From: a virus
Reading direction: 5' to 3' (one strand)
IMG/VR virus record: IMGVR_UViG_3300037071_005581
Span: 1 to 28,591 of that record
Length of the DNA: 28,591 bases
Of this stretch, positions 14,372 through 26,672 are shown one piece after another. Every line of letters begins with the position of its first letter. The stretch's first letter is position 1. Made by a program: the position numbers and the translations under genes. Below the pieces are notes generated by a model. That model saw only the letters and a program-made list of their open reading frames with translations, made no database searches and was not told the DNA's origin.

Positions 14372-15577
14372 GTGTTTGCGTGGGGAACGCGGGCGTCGCA
14401 GGAAGCGCGCGCTCGCGTCGTTGGCATCGCCCGGGGCGGAGGATTCGATCCGAACTGGCTCTCTGCCGCGATCATGTTCGAGAGTCGCTGGGACCCCAAG
14501 GCGGTAAACCCGCTTTCCAGGGCCACGGGGCTCATCCAATTCATGCCGCGCACCGCAGAGGGGCTCGGCACCACGGTCGAGCAGCTGGCGGCGATGTCGG
14601 CGGAAGCACAGCTGAATTTCGTCGCCGCGTATTTCGCACCGTTCGCGCACCGGATCAGCACGATCGAGGATTGCTACATGGCAATCCTCTGGCCCGCCGC
14701 CGTTGGCAAGCCAAACGATGCGCCGCTTTTCTCCAAGGACGATGCGAACGCGAAGGCGTACTTCGCCAACAAGGGCCTTGACGTCAACCAGGACGGCGTC
14801 GTCACCAAGGCCGAGGCAGCGGCGCGCGTCGTCCAGCTGCTCGCCCAAGGCTTGCTGCCAGCCAATGCAACCACCGACGAGGCCGAAGTGCAGCCCGTCG
14901 CTGCTCAGGAGGCCCCGATGGGCGCGCTGATTCCGATTCTCACCACCCTGTTGCCGACGGTGCTTGGTTTGTTTCAACCGAAGATTCAGGCCAAGGTGGA
15001 GCAAGTCACCGGCCAGCCCCCCGAGGTCGCCGGTCCGTTCTTGATCGACTTCTTCTCGAAGATGGCGCAGCTCGCCGGCGTTGTCCAGCCCGGACAGGCG
15101 ATCACGACGCCAACCCAAGCAGTGCAGGCGGCCGCGGCCTTGCAGACCGCGCCGGCAACTGCGGTGCAGGAGCTCGAGCAGCACACGCTCGACTATCTCG
15201 ACAAGATCGGCCCGACTTTGGATCGCCTCGCGCAGCTCGACCGCGAGGAATGGGCCGCGGCGATCTCCGGCCGCGACGCGGCGAGTGCCCGGGCGGCGCG
15301 CGATCGCGTCGACCTGGGGCCGTTCCTGGCACGGGTGGCCGCCGGTATCGCGGCGCTCATCATCTTGTGCGGACTCGTCGCACTTGGCCTACAAGTGTGG
15401 TTGAATGACGACCATGAACCTTCCGTTGGACTCGTTGGCTTGCTCGGGCCTATCATCACGCTGGCCGTGAAGTGGCTCTCGGACATCATCGCCTACCGCT
15501 TCGACGGCACCCCGACGAGCAATGCGGCTAACGCCGCGAACGCCGCGATCGCGGCCTCACTTCCAACGAAGGGATAG
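14372..15577 (+). CDS. Lytic transglycosylase / EF-hand / holin-like fusion
   Basis: The 401-residue product starts at GTG four bases after the previous stop. Residues 25-100 form an SLT-type lytic transglycosylase: catalytic E37 in MFESRWDP, then GLIQFMPRTAEGLG. Residues 137-148 are a complete EF-hand loop, DVNQDGVVTKAE. From residue 183, MGALIPILTTLLPTVLGLF begins a part resembling 3-TM phage holins (gene transfer agent/holin type), with a linker rich in Ala/Gln and two membrane spans at about 318-344 and 351-377 (PIITLAVKWLSDIIAYRF). The protein therefore joins cell-wall cleavage to a membrane-embedded, holin-like end. AGGAGG 5 nt before an in-frame ATG at 14918 points to a second, shorter product. 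Residue numbers are counted from the GTG. Confidence 0.85.
   Translation: MFAWGTRASQEARARVVGIARGGGFDPNWLSAAIMFESRWDPKAVNPLSRATGLIQFMPRTAEGLGTTVEQLAAMSAEAQLNFVAAYFAPFAHRISTIEDCYMAILWPAAVGKPNDAPLFSKDDANAKAYFANKGLDVNQDGVVTKAEAAARVVQLLAQGLLPANATTDEAEVQPVAAQEAPMGALIPILTTLLPTVLGLFQPKIQAKVEQVTGQPPEVAGPFLIDFFSKMAQLAGVVQPGQAITTPTQAVQAAAALQTAPATAVQELEQHTLDYLDKIGPTLDRLAQLDREEWAAAISGRDAASARAARDRVDLGPFLARVAAGIAALIILCGLVALGLQVWLNDDHEPSVGLVGLLGPIITLAVKWLSDIIAYRFDGTPTSNAANAANAAIAASLPTKG
14907..14912 (+). promoter_or_regulatory. Internal Shine-Dalgarno (AGGAGG)
   Basis: A perfect AGGAGG lies 5 nt before an in-frame ATG at 14918 within the transglycosylase gene. Such a strong site inside a coding frame suggests internal initiation. 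Confidence 0.6.
14918..15577 (+). CDS. Internally initiated holin-like product (in-frame with lysin)
   Basis: Translation from the ATG at 14918 would give a 219-residue protein consisting only of the C-terminal part of the fusion: an N-terminal amphipathic/hydrophobic segment (MGALIPILTTLLPTVLGLF), a helical linker and two clear membrane spans near the end. The ATG follows AGGAGG at 5 nt. This matches the size and layout of 3-TM-type phage holins, whose usual N-terminus also begins with a hydrophobic stretch. The full-length protein would then be lysin plus holin, and this shorter form holin alone. The second product is inferred, not shown. Confidence 0.5.
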   Translation: MGALIPILTTLLPTVLGLFQPKIQAKVEQVTGQPPEVAGPFLIDFFSKMAQLAGVVQPGQAITTPTQAVQAAAALQTAPATAVQELEQHTLDYLDKIGPTLDRLAQLDREEWAAAISGRDAASARAARDRVDLGPFLARVAAGIAALIILCGLVALGLQVWLNDDHEPSVGLVGLLGPIITLAVKWLSDIIAYRFDGTPTSNAANAANAAIAASLPTKG

Positions 15578-23518: not shown

Positions 23519-23896
23519 ATGCCGCGAAAAGCTCCCGTACGGGCACGACCGAAGGCATGGCACGTTCGGGTGCGGGCTGGGGTAGCGGCGCATCCGGTCA
23601 CGCTGGGGGCGCTGGTGACGTTCGTGGCGGCGGCGTATCCGGTTGCGGTGTGGGTGGAGGGGCACTTTATGACGCGGGCCGAGGCGAACCGGAAGGCGGC
23701 CTGGTTGAGCGTGCAGGTGGCGGAGCTGCAGGAGACGGTGATGCAGAATCGGGTGAACGAGTGTGATTCCAAGGAGAAGGCGGGGACGATCACGGTGTTC
23801 GAGAGCTCGGTATGCAAGGATTACCGGATCAAGCTTGGGGCGGCGTCGACCGCCAGGGAGCGTCGGCGGACGGATGCGGAGGAGTCGTCGAAATGA
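23519..23896 (+). CDS. Single-pass membrane protein
   Basis: The 125-residue product starts MPRKAPVRARPKAWHVRVRA with a very basic N-terminus, then a membrane span (VTLGALVTFVAAAYPVAVWV), then a helical outer part with two Cys (NECDSKEKAGTITVFESSVC). GAGGAG is 8 nt before the ATG. Predicted topology: N inside, C-terminal about 75 residues in the periplasm, possibly disulfide-linked. A role in lysis (spanin-like or holin-like) or in virion assembly is possible but unproven. Confidence 0.65.
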   Translation: MPRKAPVRARPKAWHVRVRAGVAAHPVTLGALVTFVAAAYPVAVWVEGHFMTRAEANRKAAWLSVQVAELQETVMQNRVNECDSKEKAGTITVFESSVCKDYRIKLGAASTARERRRTDAEESSK

Positions 23897-24036
23897 AGAA
23901 CTGGATCTATCTCAAGTGGGACCCGTTGTTCTTTTCGATGGCGGCGGGTGGGGCGTTGGGCCCGCGCTGGGCGGTTCGGGCCCGGATCGAGGCGGCGGAC
24001 TACAAGCGATTCCTGAAGGCCCAGCGTGGAGGCTGA
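23893..24036 (+). CDS. Small hypothetical protein
   Basis: The 47-residue product is MKNWIYLKWDPLFFSMAAGG then ALGPRWAVRARIEAADYKRF, ending LKAQRGG. The first half is hydrophobic and aromatic, the second basic. ATG overlaps the upstream stop by 4 nt. A weak membrane association is possible. Unknown function. Confidence 0.55.
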   Translation: MKNWIYLKWDPLFFSMAAGGALGPRWAVRARIEAADYKRFLKAQRGG

Positions 24037-24037
24037 G

Positions 24038-24355
24038 GTGGACACGACCCCGATGCCGGTCTCCGACCACCGCAAGAGCGGGTGGACGCTGTGGCGCGAG
24101 ATCTACGGGACCTTTATCGGGCTGCTGCCGCTGCTGGTTGTGATCAGCGGGGTGGCGTGGACGGTGATCCGGGATACGGACCGGCACACGTTGGAGATTT
24201 TCTACCTGCAGCAGGCCGACACGCGGCATGAGGAGCAGATGACGGCGCTACGCTTGGAGCAGGCGTCGATCCGGTTGGAGATCATCGGGAAGATGGACAA
24301 GATCGGGAACCAGATCGAGGAGCTGCAGAAGCAGGTGGCCCGGGCGATGCGCTGA
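24038..24355 (+). CDS. Membrane-anchored coiled-coil protein
   Basis: GTG at 24038 was chosen because GGAGG lies 5 nt upstream; an earlier GTG at 24026 is possible. The product (about 105 residues) has a short polar start (SDHRKSGWTLWREIYGTF), a membrane span (IGLLPLLVVISGVAWTVI) and a long charged coiled coil (EEQMTALRLEQASIRLEIIG, then KMDKIGNQIEELQKQVARAM). With the preceding membrane protein it may form a two-component complex. The stop shares a base with the terL ATG (TGATG). Family unknown; the layout recalls spanin or XhlA-like proteins but does not match them. Confidence 0.65.
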   Translation: MDTTPMPVSDHRKSGWTLWREIYGTFIGLLPLLVVISGVAWTVIRDTDRHTLEIFYLQQADTRHEEQMTALRLEQASIRLEIIGKMDKIGNQIEELQKQVARAMR

Positions 24356-26037
24356 TGGGTAAGGCGGCAAGGAAGGAGCGGCTCCCCCAGCCGTGGGGGC
24401 TCAAGGTCTTGACGGTGGAGGACGGGCTGCGGATCCGGGCTCTCCCCTTCGGGGAGGAGTTGCTGGCGGCGTGGGATCGGGTGCTGAAGATCGGGGACGC
24501 CGCGGCGGCCGATCTGGGGAAGCTGGACCGGTACTGGCTGCTGATCGAGCCGTGCAAGCGCACCGACCTGTGGCACCCGTGGATCTACGCGCGCTGCCGG
24601 GAGGTGGAAGCCGAGCCCGACGGGGTGCTGGACCTGTGGGCGCGCGAGCACGGAAAGTCCTCGATGATCACCTTCGGGGGCTCGGTGCAGGAGATCGTGC
24701 GGGATTCCGACATCACGATCGGGATTTTCAGCCATACGAAGCCGGAAGCCCGGAAGTTCCTGAGCTGGGTGAAGTTGGAGCTCGAGGACAACCGCGTGCT
24801 GCAGGGCCTGTACCCGGACGTCCTCTACGCGGACCCGCAGAAGGAAGCCCCGCGATGGTCGGAAGAAAAAGGGATCATCGTCAGAAGGAAGTCGAACCCG
24901 CGCGAGGCGACGATCGAGGCCCACGGTCTCGTAGACGGCCAGCCGACGGGGAGCCACTTCAAGCTGCGGATCTACGACGACATCGTGACGCTCGAAAGCG
25001 TGACGACCGCCGAGCAGATCAAGAAGACGACGGAAGCCCACGCCCTCTCGGACAACCTGGGCGCCCGCGGCGCCGACGGAAAAAAGCGCGCGTGGCATCT
25101 GGGGACGAGGTATCGCTTCGGGGACACCTACCAGGATCTGATCGACCGCAAGGCGCTGAAGACCCGGATCTATCCGGCGACCGACGACGGGACCCCGACG
25201 GGGAACCCGGTGTACCTCACCAAGGAGCAGTGGGCGGACGTGCGGCGGAAGCAGCCGACCGCGATCCTGGCGGCCCAGCAGCTCCTGAATCCGGCGGCCG
25301 GGGTGGAGGCGATGTTCCAGCAGAGCTGGCTCCGCTTCACCGACATCCGGCCGGCGACCTTGAACGTGTACCTGTGCTGCGATCCGGCGTCCTCGCGGAA
25401 GAAGAACTCCGACGACACGGTGATCACCGTGATGGGGATCGACGCGAACCGCAACAAGTACCTGCTGGACGGCTACGCGCACAAGATGGGCCTCTCGGAG
25501 CGCTGGCAGAAGATCCGCGACCTGTGGAAGAAGTGGTCGGAGAGCCCGGGGGTGCAGTTCGTGAAGGTGGGCTACGAGCGCTACGGCCTGCTGGATGCGA
25601 TGGAGCACTTCGAGGAGCGGCAGGAGGTGGAGAAGCTCTCCTTCGAGATCGCGGAGCTCGCGTGGCCGACAGAGGGCGCGAACTCGAAGTACGACAGGAT
25701 CCAGAGGCTCGAACCAGACTTCCGGGCGGGGAAATGGTTCCTGGCGGCCGAGCCGATCGACAAGGAGGGGCGCCCGATCGAGGAGACCCGCAACCAGCGG
25801 GAGTTGCGCGAGATGGGGCAGGACTTCCGGGCGATGCGCCCGATCTGGCGGAAGGACGCCGAGGGCAATGCCTACAGCCTGAACGGCAAGATTCTGGTGT
25901 GTTACCTGCGCTACCCCTACGTGGTGCGCGACGACACCCTCGACTGCATGAGCAGGATCTACGACATGGACCCAGCCCCGCCGATCGTGATCGACGCCCA
26001 GCTTCTGGAACCGGAGACCTTCGTCGACGGCGCGTAG
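24355..26037 (+). CDS. terL: Terminase large subunit
   Basis: This is the ATP-driven packaging motor and the nuclease that cuts phage DNA. The 560-residue product has the Walker A variant LWAREHGKSSM (residues 94-104), Walker B LRIYDDI with D208/D209 and a nearby Glu, a probable coupling segment (WHLGTRYRFGD), and the C-terminal RNase H-like nuclease with D343 (CCDPASSRKKNSDD), E408 (VGYERYG) and D526/D527/D530 (RDDTLDCMSRIYD). Length is normal. ATG overlaps the upstream stop by one base (TGATG). The AREHGKS type resembles terminases of several proteobacterial podo-/siphoviruses. After the stop, another frame continues as an HTH-like sequence. Confidence 0.92.
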   Translation: MGKAARKERLPQPWGLKVLTVEDGLRIRALPFGEELLAAWDRVLKIGDAAAADLGKLDRYWLLIEPCKRTDLWHPWIYARCREVEAEPDGVLDLWAREHGKSSMITFGGSVQEIVRDSDITIGIFSHTKPEARKFLSWVKLELEDNRVLQGLYPDVLYADPQKEAPRWSEEKGIIVRRKSNPREATIEAHGLVDGQPTGSHFKLRIYDDIVTLESVTTAEQIKKTTEAHALSDNLGARGADGKKRAWHLGTRYRFGDTYQDLIDRKALKTRIYPATDDGTPTGNPVYLTKEQWADVRRKQPTAILAAQQLLNPAAGVEAMFQQSWLRFTDIRPATLNVYLCCDPASSRKKNSDDTVITVMGIDANRNKYLLDGYAHKMGLSERWQKIRDLWKKWSESPGVQFVKVGYERYGLLDAMEHFEERQEVEKLSFEIAELAWPTEGANSKYDRIQRLEPDFRAGKWFLAAEPIDKEGRPIEETRNQRELREMGQDFRAMRPIWRKDAEGNAYSLNGKILVCYLRYPYVVRDDTLDCMSRIYDMDPAPPIVIDAQLLEPETFVDGA

Positions 26038-26039
26038 CG

Positions 26040-26225
26040 CTCGAAATCGCACTCGTCGCGCACTTCCTGCGCAGCGACGGCCTCACGGTGGCAGCCGTTG
26101 CGCAGCTTTTAGGCTCCAACCGCATCACCGTCCACCACTGGTCGCGCGTCGGCGAAGGCTACCTGCGCCGATTAGCCAGGGATACCGAACTAATCAGATA
26201 CCTGAAGGAGATCGCTCATGGCTGA
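26040..26225 (+). CDS. HTH-like reading frame after terL, start unresolved
   Basis: Immediately after the terL stop, frame -1 relative to terL reads LEIALVAHFLRSDGLTVAAV then AQLLGSNRITVHHWSRVGEG and YLRRLARDTELIRYLKEIAHG. AQLLGSNRITVHHW has the look of a helix-turn-helix. No ATG, GTG or TTG lies before the domain; the first in-frame GTG (26088) would cut off helix 1. Either a frameshift from terL, an unusual start codon, a sequencing error or a decaying gene explains it. Its TGA overlaps the next ATG by 8 nt. Confidence 0.4.
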   Translation, partial: LEIALVAHFLRSDGLTVAAVAQLLGSNRITVHHWSRVGEGYLRRLARDTELIRYLKEIAHG

Positions 26226-26421
26226 TTTCGACCCCGATGCACCCTTCGCCACCGTCGTCGGACTCCCCGGCGCCGCCTTCGAGCAGGAAGGGGTGTTCTT
26301 CGACAGCCAGTTGGTCGAAGTCACCCCGCCGGACGATACCGAGTTCGTGGAGCTCGCCTCCTCGCGCACCGGAGCGGTACGCCTGGTGACGCTCGCCCAG
26401 CTCGCGACACTTCTCGCATGA
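26218..26421 (+). CDS. Small beta-rich protein, paralogue A
   Basis: The 67-residue product starts MADFDPDAPFATVVGLPGAA then FEQEGVFFDSQLVEVTPPDD. Pattern: VVGLPG...EGVFFD...EVTP...ELASSRTGAVRLVTLAQLATLL. AAGGAG lies 8 nt before the ATG. It is clearly related to the next gene (VIGLPG...DGVYYD...EVTP...RTGTVRLVTLEALALLL), so the two are a tandem duplication. Unknown fold; possibly a virion or head-connector component given the late position between terL and the probable portal gene. Confidence 0.65.
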   Translation: MADFDPDAPFATVVGLPGAAFEQEGVFFDSQLVEVTPPDDTEFVELASSRTGAVRLVTLAQLATLLA

Positions 26422-26672
26422 CCCAAGAAGCCACCGGGATCGGCGCCGCAAGCGGGGCCGGCGCCTTCGTCCGCGTCGCCTTCGATGCCGAGGTTGGTCA
26501 CGCCCAGGTGATCGGGCTCCCCGGGGTCGCCTACAGCCAGGACGGGGTCTACTACGACAACGAGGGCACCGAGGTCACACCCGAAGCCGACGTCGAGCTC
26601 GTACGCGTGAAGAACGGCCGGACCGGCACGGTTCGCCTCGTAACACTCGAAGCCCTCGCCCTCCTCCTCTGA
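26418..26672 (+). CDS. Small beta-rich protein, paralogue B
   Basis: The 84-residue product starts MTQEATGIGAASGAGAFVRV. Its core matches the preceding gene over about 55 residues (VIGLPGVAYSQDGVYYDNEG then VTPEADVELVRVKNGRTGTV). It has an extra Gly/Ala-rich N-terminus. ATG overlaps the previous stop by 4 nt. Duplication with divergence suggests that the two products form a hetero-oligomer or do related jobs. Confidence 0.65.
   Translation: MTQEATGIGAASGAGAFVRVAFDAEVGHAQVIGLPGVAYSQDGVYYDNEGTEVTPEADVELVRVKNGRTGTVRLVTLEALALLL

Follow-up and report, generated by a model that had tools for sequence, protein, structure and literature searches.

Canonical phage lysis leaves the endolysin unbound in the cytoplasm up to the moment when the holin opens the membrane. 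Lambda S105/S107 is a single frame with two starts, from which the holin is made with or without an N-terminal extension. A natural holin-endolysin fusion of the TpeE family is described in Clostridium sporogenes (PMC9527704), and M4Lys of Salmonella phage BSPM4 is an endolysin with a C-terminal transmembrane domain, or TMD (PMC7143992). Endolysins made as two polypeptides through internal translation starts include CTP1L (PMC4777826) and those of a survey that left out phages of Gram-negative bacteria as unlikely (PMC9430671). The holin TeaA of ICP1, which DNP can trigger, collapses the PMF and lyses V. cholerae, all demonstrated for TeaA alone, and was called GTA_holin_3TM (PF11351) by remote homology in the same work (PMC7182436). 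Holin-endolysin fusions, endolysins with a C-terminal TMD and internal starts in endolysins have been published separately; our literature search brought up no fusion of endolysin and holin that has an internal start, which is weak evidence given that subscription journals lie mostly outside its coverage.

We describe a gene that appears to combine these elements, in a window of 28,591 nucleotides (the whole stretch of DNA analysed, IMG/VR record IMGVR_UViG_3300037071_005581). The open reading frame lies at 14372..15577 on the + strand (401 aa, GTG start, TAG stop), and all of its features given below are on that strand. Judged from its sequence, it is probably a dual-start endolysin-holin gene, encoding a membrane-tethered lysin and a free holin. 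An earlier sequence-only reading of this DNA had called the arrangement unusual; the combination stands as such, although there are precedents in the C. sporogenes fusions (PMC9527704), M4Lys (PMC7143992) and CTP1L (PMC4777826).

The same reading placed a transglycosylase, an EF-hand and a membrane half in one frame, which the open reading frame, the PF01464 match, the calcium-binding loop and the hydrophobic helices bear out. The lytic transglycosylase (LT) domain with its EF-hand covers residues 3-161 (14378..14854), as delimited by PF01464, phrog_4928/196 and PDB 9udh. The SLT domain PF01464 is matched in residues 24-70 (E 1.2e-7, 31.7 bits, cut-off 21.3), and the nearest solved chain to the enzyme half is 9udh, a 'lytic transglycosidase' (E 2.6e-33, residues 3-161). 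Alignment with stand-alone LTs (LAWG/FAWG) backs the GTG start at 14372, and the putative catalytic Glu37 (14480..14482) is invariant in 11 aligned LTs. The EF-hand-type Ca-binding loop DVNQDGVVTKAE (residues 137-148, 14780..14815) has the canonical pattern D137-x-N-x-D-G-x-V-x-x-x-E148 and aligns in relatives. A SAR/signal-peptide test found no hydrophobic segment ahead of residue 176 in the fusion frame. A non-conserved linker (residues 168-182, 14873..14917) joins the enzyme to the TeaA/phrog_1544-like holin half of 219 aa (residues 183-401, 14918..15577). By hydropathy, this half has one N-terminal hydrophobic stretch, MGALIPILTTLLPTVLGLF (14918..14974), with which the predicted short product would begin, and two strong hydrophobic helices, predicted TM1 (residues 322-340, 15335..15391) and predicted TM2 (residues 351-369, 15422..15478, with an acidic loop ahead). 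Hydropathy and charges favour an N-in/C-in orientation of this C-terminal two-TM hairpin.

The internal Shine-Dalgarno sequence (SD) AGGAGG was located at 14907..14912, where the sequence-only reading had put it, separated by the 5-nt spacer CCCCG from an in-frame ATG (14918..14920) that is the predicted start of the free holin-like product. The SD of this ATG is the strongest among 23 internal in-frame ATG/GTG/TTG codons tested in the frame, and of the 223 internal in-frame starts that the main + strand genes of the window contain, no other attains -10 kcal/mol; the SD of the gene's own GTG at 14372 is weak (-3.5 kcal/mol). In all ten non-redundant fusions known to us from the searches described below, an ATG or GTG with an SD 5-8 nt upstream stands where the C-half begins. 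The start codon is GTG in L108 and L128 and ATG in the remaining fusions, and the signals include AGGAGG at 5 nt in the window, GAGGA at 7 nt in L025, AGGAG at 6 nt in L026 and AGGA at 6 nt in L051, each with an in-frame ATG. The mean duplex energy of the junction SD is -9.15 kcal/mol in the ten fusions, several of which are mutually homologous and do not count as fully independent events, versus -2.60 kcal/mol for 249 other internal in-frame starts (MWU p=2e-7), and within each fusion frame the junction ranks first or second among in-frame starts. The linker peptides at the join differ among fusions (QREDQR, NVEGR, EKEKT, PKETS, GQEHS, QEAP); L025 and L114 share up to 73% identity along the gene and read QREDQR-M and TNVEGR-M, with GGAGG kept in both. 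Homologues lacking the signal would have counted against the earlier reading; an in-frame ATG/GTG with an SD is kept in 10/10 fusions, in which linker sequence, length and enzyme class vary. An in-frame start with a ribosome-binding site at a domain boundary, conserved in relatives, is also what marks internal-start endolysins. A synonymous-codon test had been expected to be strong and came out weak: against codons resampled under the same peptide, the SD stood out little (combined p=0.04; p=0.53 for the window by itself), and consequently SD strength is due largely to residues such as QE, EG and KE at that distance.

Searched alone, the C-half of the window matched only phrog_1544 (E 0.0014), with no significant match in Pfam or NCBIfam. 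ICP1 TeaA falls in phrog_1544 (E 1.7e-53), and in our searches PF11351 was hit neither by TeaA nor by the window. When aligned to phrog_1544 with hhalign, seven sister C-halves reached a probability of 94.5 (E 8e-8) and the window branch (window, L025, L114) one of 79 (E 1.5e-5); none of eleven unrelated membrane-protein controls exceeded 34. Kuura_022, chosen as a twelfth control and encoded just upstream of the Kuura LT, turned out to be a relative (95.6). In hmmsearch with the phrog_1544 profile, L128 scored 2e-9 and the window C-half did no better than shuffled controls. Direct hhalign between the two groups of C-halves was not significant (probability 4.9), so the groups are joined only via the TeaA family and the architecture. 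The family has the invariant residues D88, A92 and R93 (D-x3-A-R ahead of TM1), a motif that DAASAR in the window (residues 302-307, 15275..15292) satisfies. Structure prediction of the C-half, proposed earlier as a check, was of no help: AF2 modelled the enzyme of the fusion well and the C-half poorly, the C-half alone had a pLDDT of 59.5, and Foldseek with that model found nothing. The resemblance of the C-half to a TeaA-type holin is solid for several relatives and moderate for the branch of the window, as judged from these sequence comparisons. The claim that residues 183-401 are holin-like has accordingly gained a family link through phrog_1544, weak for the window protein itself (E 0.0014).

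Members of phrog_1544 lie directly behind a muramidase (C5a), annotated endolysins (K371a, ZP9), a lysozyme (P24), a GH108 enzyme (Rhodoferax phage) and an amidase (GJ44). In KLEA5 the member follows one small gene after an endolysin of the same LT type, and in Spe5P4 and BcepF1 no annotated endolysin adjoins it. The window shares this adjacency of TeaA-type holins to endolysins, by fusion, and its C-half matches a complete stand-alone holin in length. The family, listed as of unknown function (e.g. L006:3688-4194, L020:2348-2878, L024:2411-2905), is here linked to holin function and could be annotated as holin.

A search for the same fusion in other sequences, which had also been proposed, yielded nine further non-redundant genes with an endolysin N-half in frame with a two-TM C-half, six of them on IMG/VR contigs and three from bacterial genomes. 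Among 93 relatives of the enzyme half, all except seven rows stop within 41 residues of the EF-hand region; those with a longer C-terminus are the window (listed twice), L001, L025, L026, L037 and L051. Searches with C-halves added L108, L111/L112 and L113, a genome scan with L025 added L114 (a Burkholderiales MAG), and searches of same-order and same-phylum genomes added L128 and L133. The total of ten excludes L109, a repeat of L051, and L106/L107, repeats of L025/L026; the weak genome-search matches L129-L131 look spurious. Of the IMG/VR scans, A2 (with an alignment) and A5 (with the C-half) were productive, those with single sequences or A4 brought hardly anything, and A1 was too poorly conserved for scanning. 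With tblastn, 50,697 phage records gave zero matches for the C-halves of the window, L025 and L128. The phage relatives of the enzyme half are either lytic enzymes encoded on their own or the final domain of baseplate hubs.

The endolysin halves of the fusions are of three unrelated kinds (SLT, lambda-R-like and GH19-like). L128 and L133, from two genomes, have C-halves that are 92% identical and enzymes that are unrelated, lambda-lysozyme-like in L128 (1am7, E 2e-26) and GH19-type-endolysin-like in L133 (9ms7, E 4e-43); the enzyme of L108 resembles that of L128 and the enzyme of L113 that of L133. Endolysins have thus been swapped in frame ahead of a single holin-like part, and the start signal has stayed at the junction. 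A stand-alone relative of the C-half, L134:1474-2025 (genome G694), has the corresponding start with its own SD (-11.8) and lies two genes downstream of a lysozyme-like frame (337-837), in a putative lysis region. L001 and L037 carry the same LT with another C-terminal extension, a PG-binding-like stretch and a TM, and have no internal SD start at the join; these genes (L001:3992-5194, L037:2935-4218) show similarity to phrog_181 and phrog_1224 endolysin, and from sequence they appear to be a second kind of membrane-tethered endolysin.

One or two small single-TM proteins are encoded just upstream of the fusion in L025, L114, L051, L111, L128 and L133, and these proteins, which precede the fusion in most relatives, are possible antiholin or spanin parts. 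None was seen directly upstream of the fusion in the window. Two small proteins elsewhere in the window (23519-23896 and 24026-24355, + strand), with one predicted TM each, resemble them and precede a long frame (24355-26037) that looks like a large terminase, with no confirmation from Pfam. Two adjacent small frames at 26218-26421 and 26418-26672 (+ strand) look like tandem copies (SRTGAVRLVTLAQLATLL, GRTGTVRLVTLEALALLL).

If the gene has two starts, GTG 14372 would give an SLT endolysin with a TeaA-type two-TM holin domain permanently attached, and ATG 14918 the holin domain alone. The sequence itself shows a well-formed internal initiation site and no stop codon closing the N-half, so the endolysin can arise only within a membrane protein, unless cleaved later. 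Both forms would insert via the C-terminal hairpin with cytoplasmic N and C termini. The short form, more strongly initiated, would be made in excess, act as the main hole-former and carry or admit the tethered enzyme, and the long form would co-assemble with it, hold the enzyme at the membrane and reach the cell wall where the hole forms. The bulk of the N-domain may also delay hole formation, a timing part as in long lambda S. That the long form serves both as a tethered lysin and as an antiholin-like timer, with the short form as hole-former, in a design recurrent in phages of proteobacteria with an interchangeable endolysin, is a tentative proposal about which we are somewhat doubtful. If it is true, lysis enzyme, hole and clock are one gene, with the ratio set by two ribosome-binding sites.

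The dual-start interpretation draws on the nine further in-frame fusions with a start and SD at the same join, on junction SDs far above other internal starts (MWU p=2e-7), on the enzyme swap between L128 and L133, and on the stand-alone L134 with the corresponding start and its own strong SD. It also draws on the presence of TeaA in phrog_1544, a family whose stand-alone members are usually encoded right behind an endolysin, and on the profile links to that family (94.5 and 79 versus at most 34 in controls). Against it count an SD that only slightly exceeds what synonymous codons would give (combined p=0.04), the remoteness of the window C-half from TeaA with its poor AF2 model and empty Foldseek search, the occurrence of the SLT/EF-hand domain also in baseplate hubs (phrog_196), and the structural nature of the upstream gene (Gp80).

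Some of these points would fit a membrane-anchored endolysin like M4Lys, in which the C-half serves for anchoring or export, the SD and ATG are a by-product of the peptide QEAPM, and no short product is made. M4Lys by itself lyses E. coli (PMC7143992), the synonymous-codon null is weak, and in L001 and L037 the same enzyme has a different TM tail and lacks an internal SD start at the join. We consider this explanation unlikely, since a start codon with an SD stands exactly at the join in 10/10 fusions despite different linker peptides, and since the C-half has the length of a complete stand-alone holin. The close matches of the enzyme half to baseplate hub C-termini (phrog_196) and the Gp80-like virion protein encoded upstream would suit a virion-associated transglycosylase for entry, with a membrane-inserting tail and no role in lysis; however, sister fusions bear lambda-R-like and GH19-like endolysins on the same type of C-half, and phrog_1544 includes the holin TeaA and adjoins endolysins, which makes an entry enzyme quite improbable. 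Stand-alone LT and holin-like genes are neighbours elsewhere, for example in KLEA5, and two overlapping genes might have been merged by a sequencing or assembly frameshift. This is scarcely credible, and the independent fusions refute it: across separate assemblies, ten non-redundant genes run open through the join with in-frame starts.

Under the dual-start interpretation, binding of the enzyme to the holin itself, in ten genes and three enzyme classes, implies that delivery and timing must work differently from the canonical scheme. With the fusion one could simply test if a lysin has to be released or if touching the wall at the rim of the hole is enough, and the range of endolysins with internal starts would grow by a group omitted from the published survey.

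The C-half is like TeaA in its size (~180-220 aa), hydrophobic N-terminal stretch, D-x3-A-R motif and C-terminal two-helix hairpin with a small acidic loop, and the TeaA family usually comes right after an endolysin; unlike TeaA, which is a separate gene, the half in the window follows the endolysin in one polypeptide, and in sequence it lies far from TeaA. The C. sporogenes fusion likewise has holin and endolysin in a single polypeptide, but its holin is N-terminal, of another family and from Gram-positives, and the accessible text describes no internal start; the clostridial order, an N-terminal TpeE holin followed by the endolysin, is reversed in the window. M4Lys resembles the long form in having a C-terminal TMD and no N-terminal signal, and differs in that this is one small TMD rather than a whole holin, that a separate putative holin gene exists and that the accessible text reports no second product. 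CTP1L and the surveyed endolysins share the internal in-frame start with its own ribosome-binding site that gives a short C-terminal product; theirs is C-terminal endolysin sequence (in CTP1L the wall-binding domain) in phages of Gram-positives, whereas hydropathy and the profile match point to a membrane protein here and not to a wall-binding domain. As in lambda S105/S107, one frame with a dual start would yield an extended and an unextended holin, the extension being two residues there and a 182-residue enzyme here.
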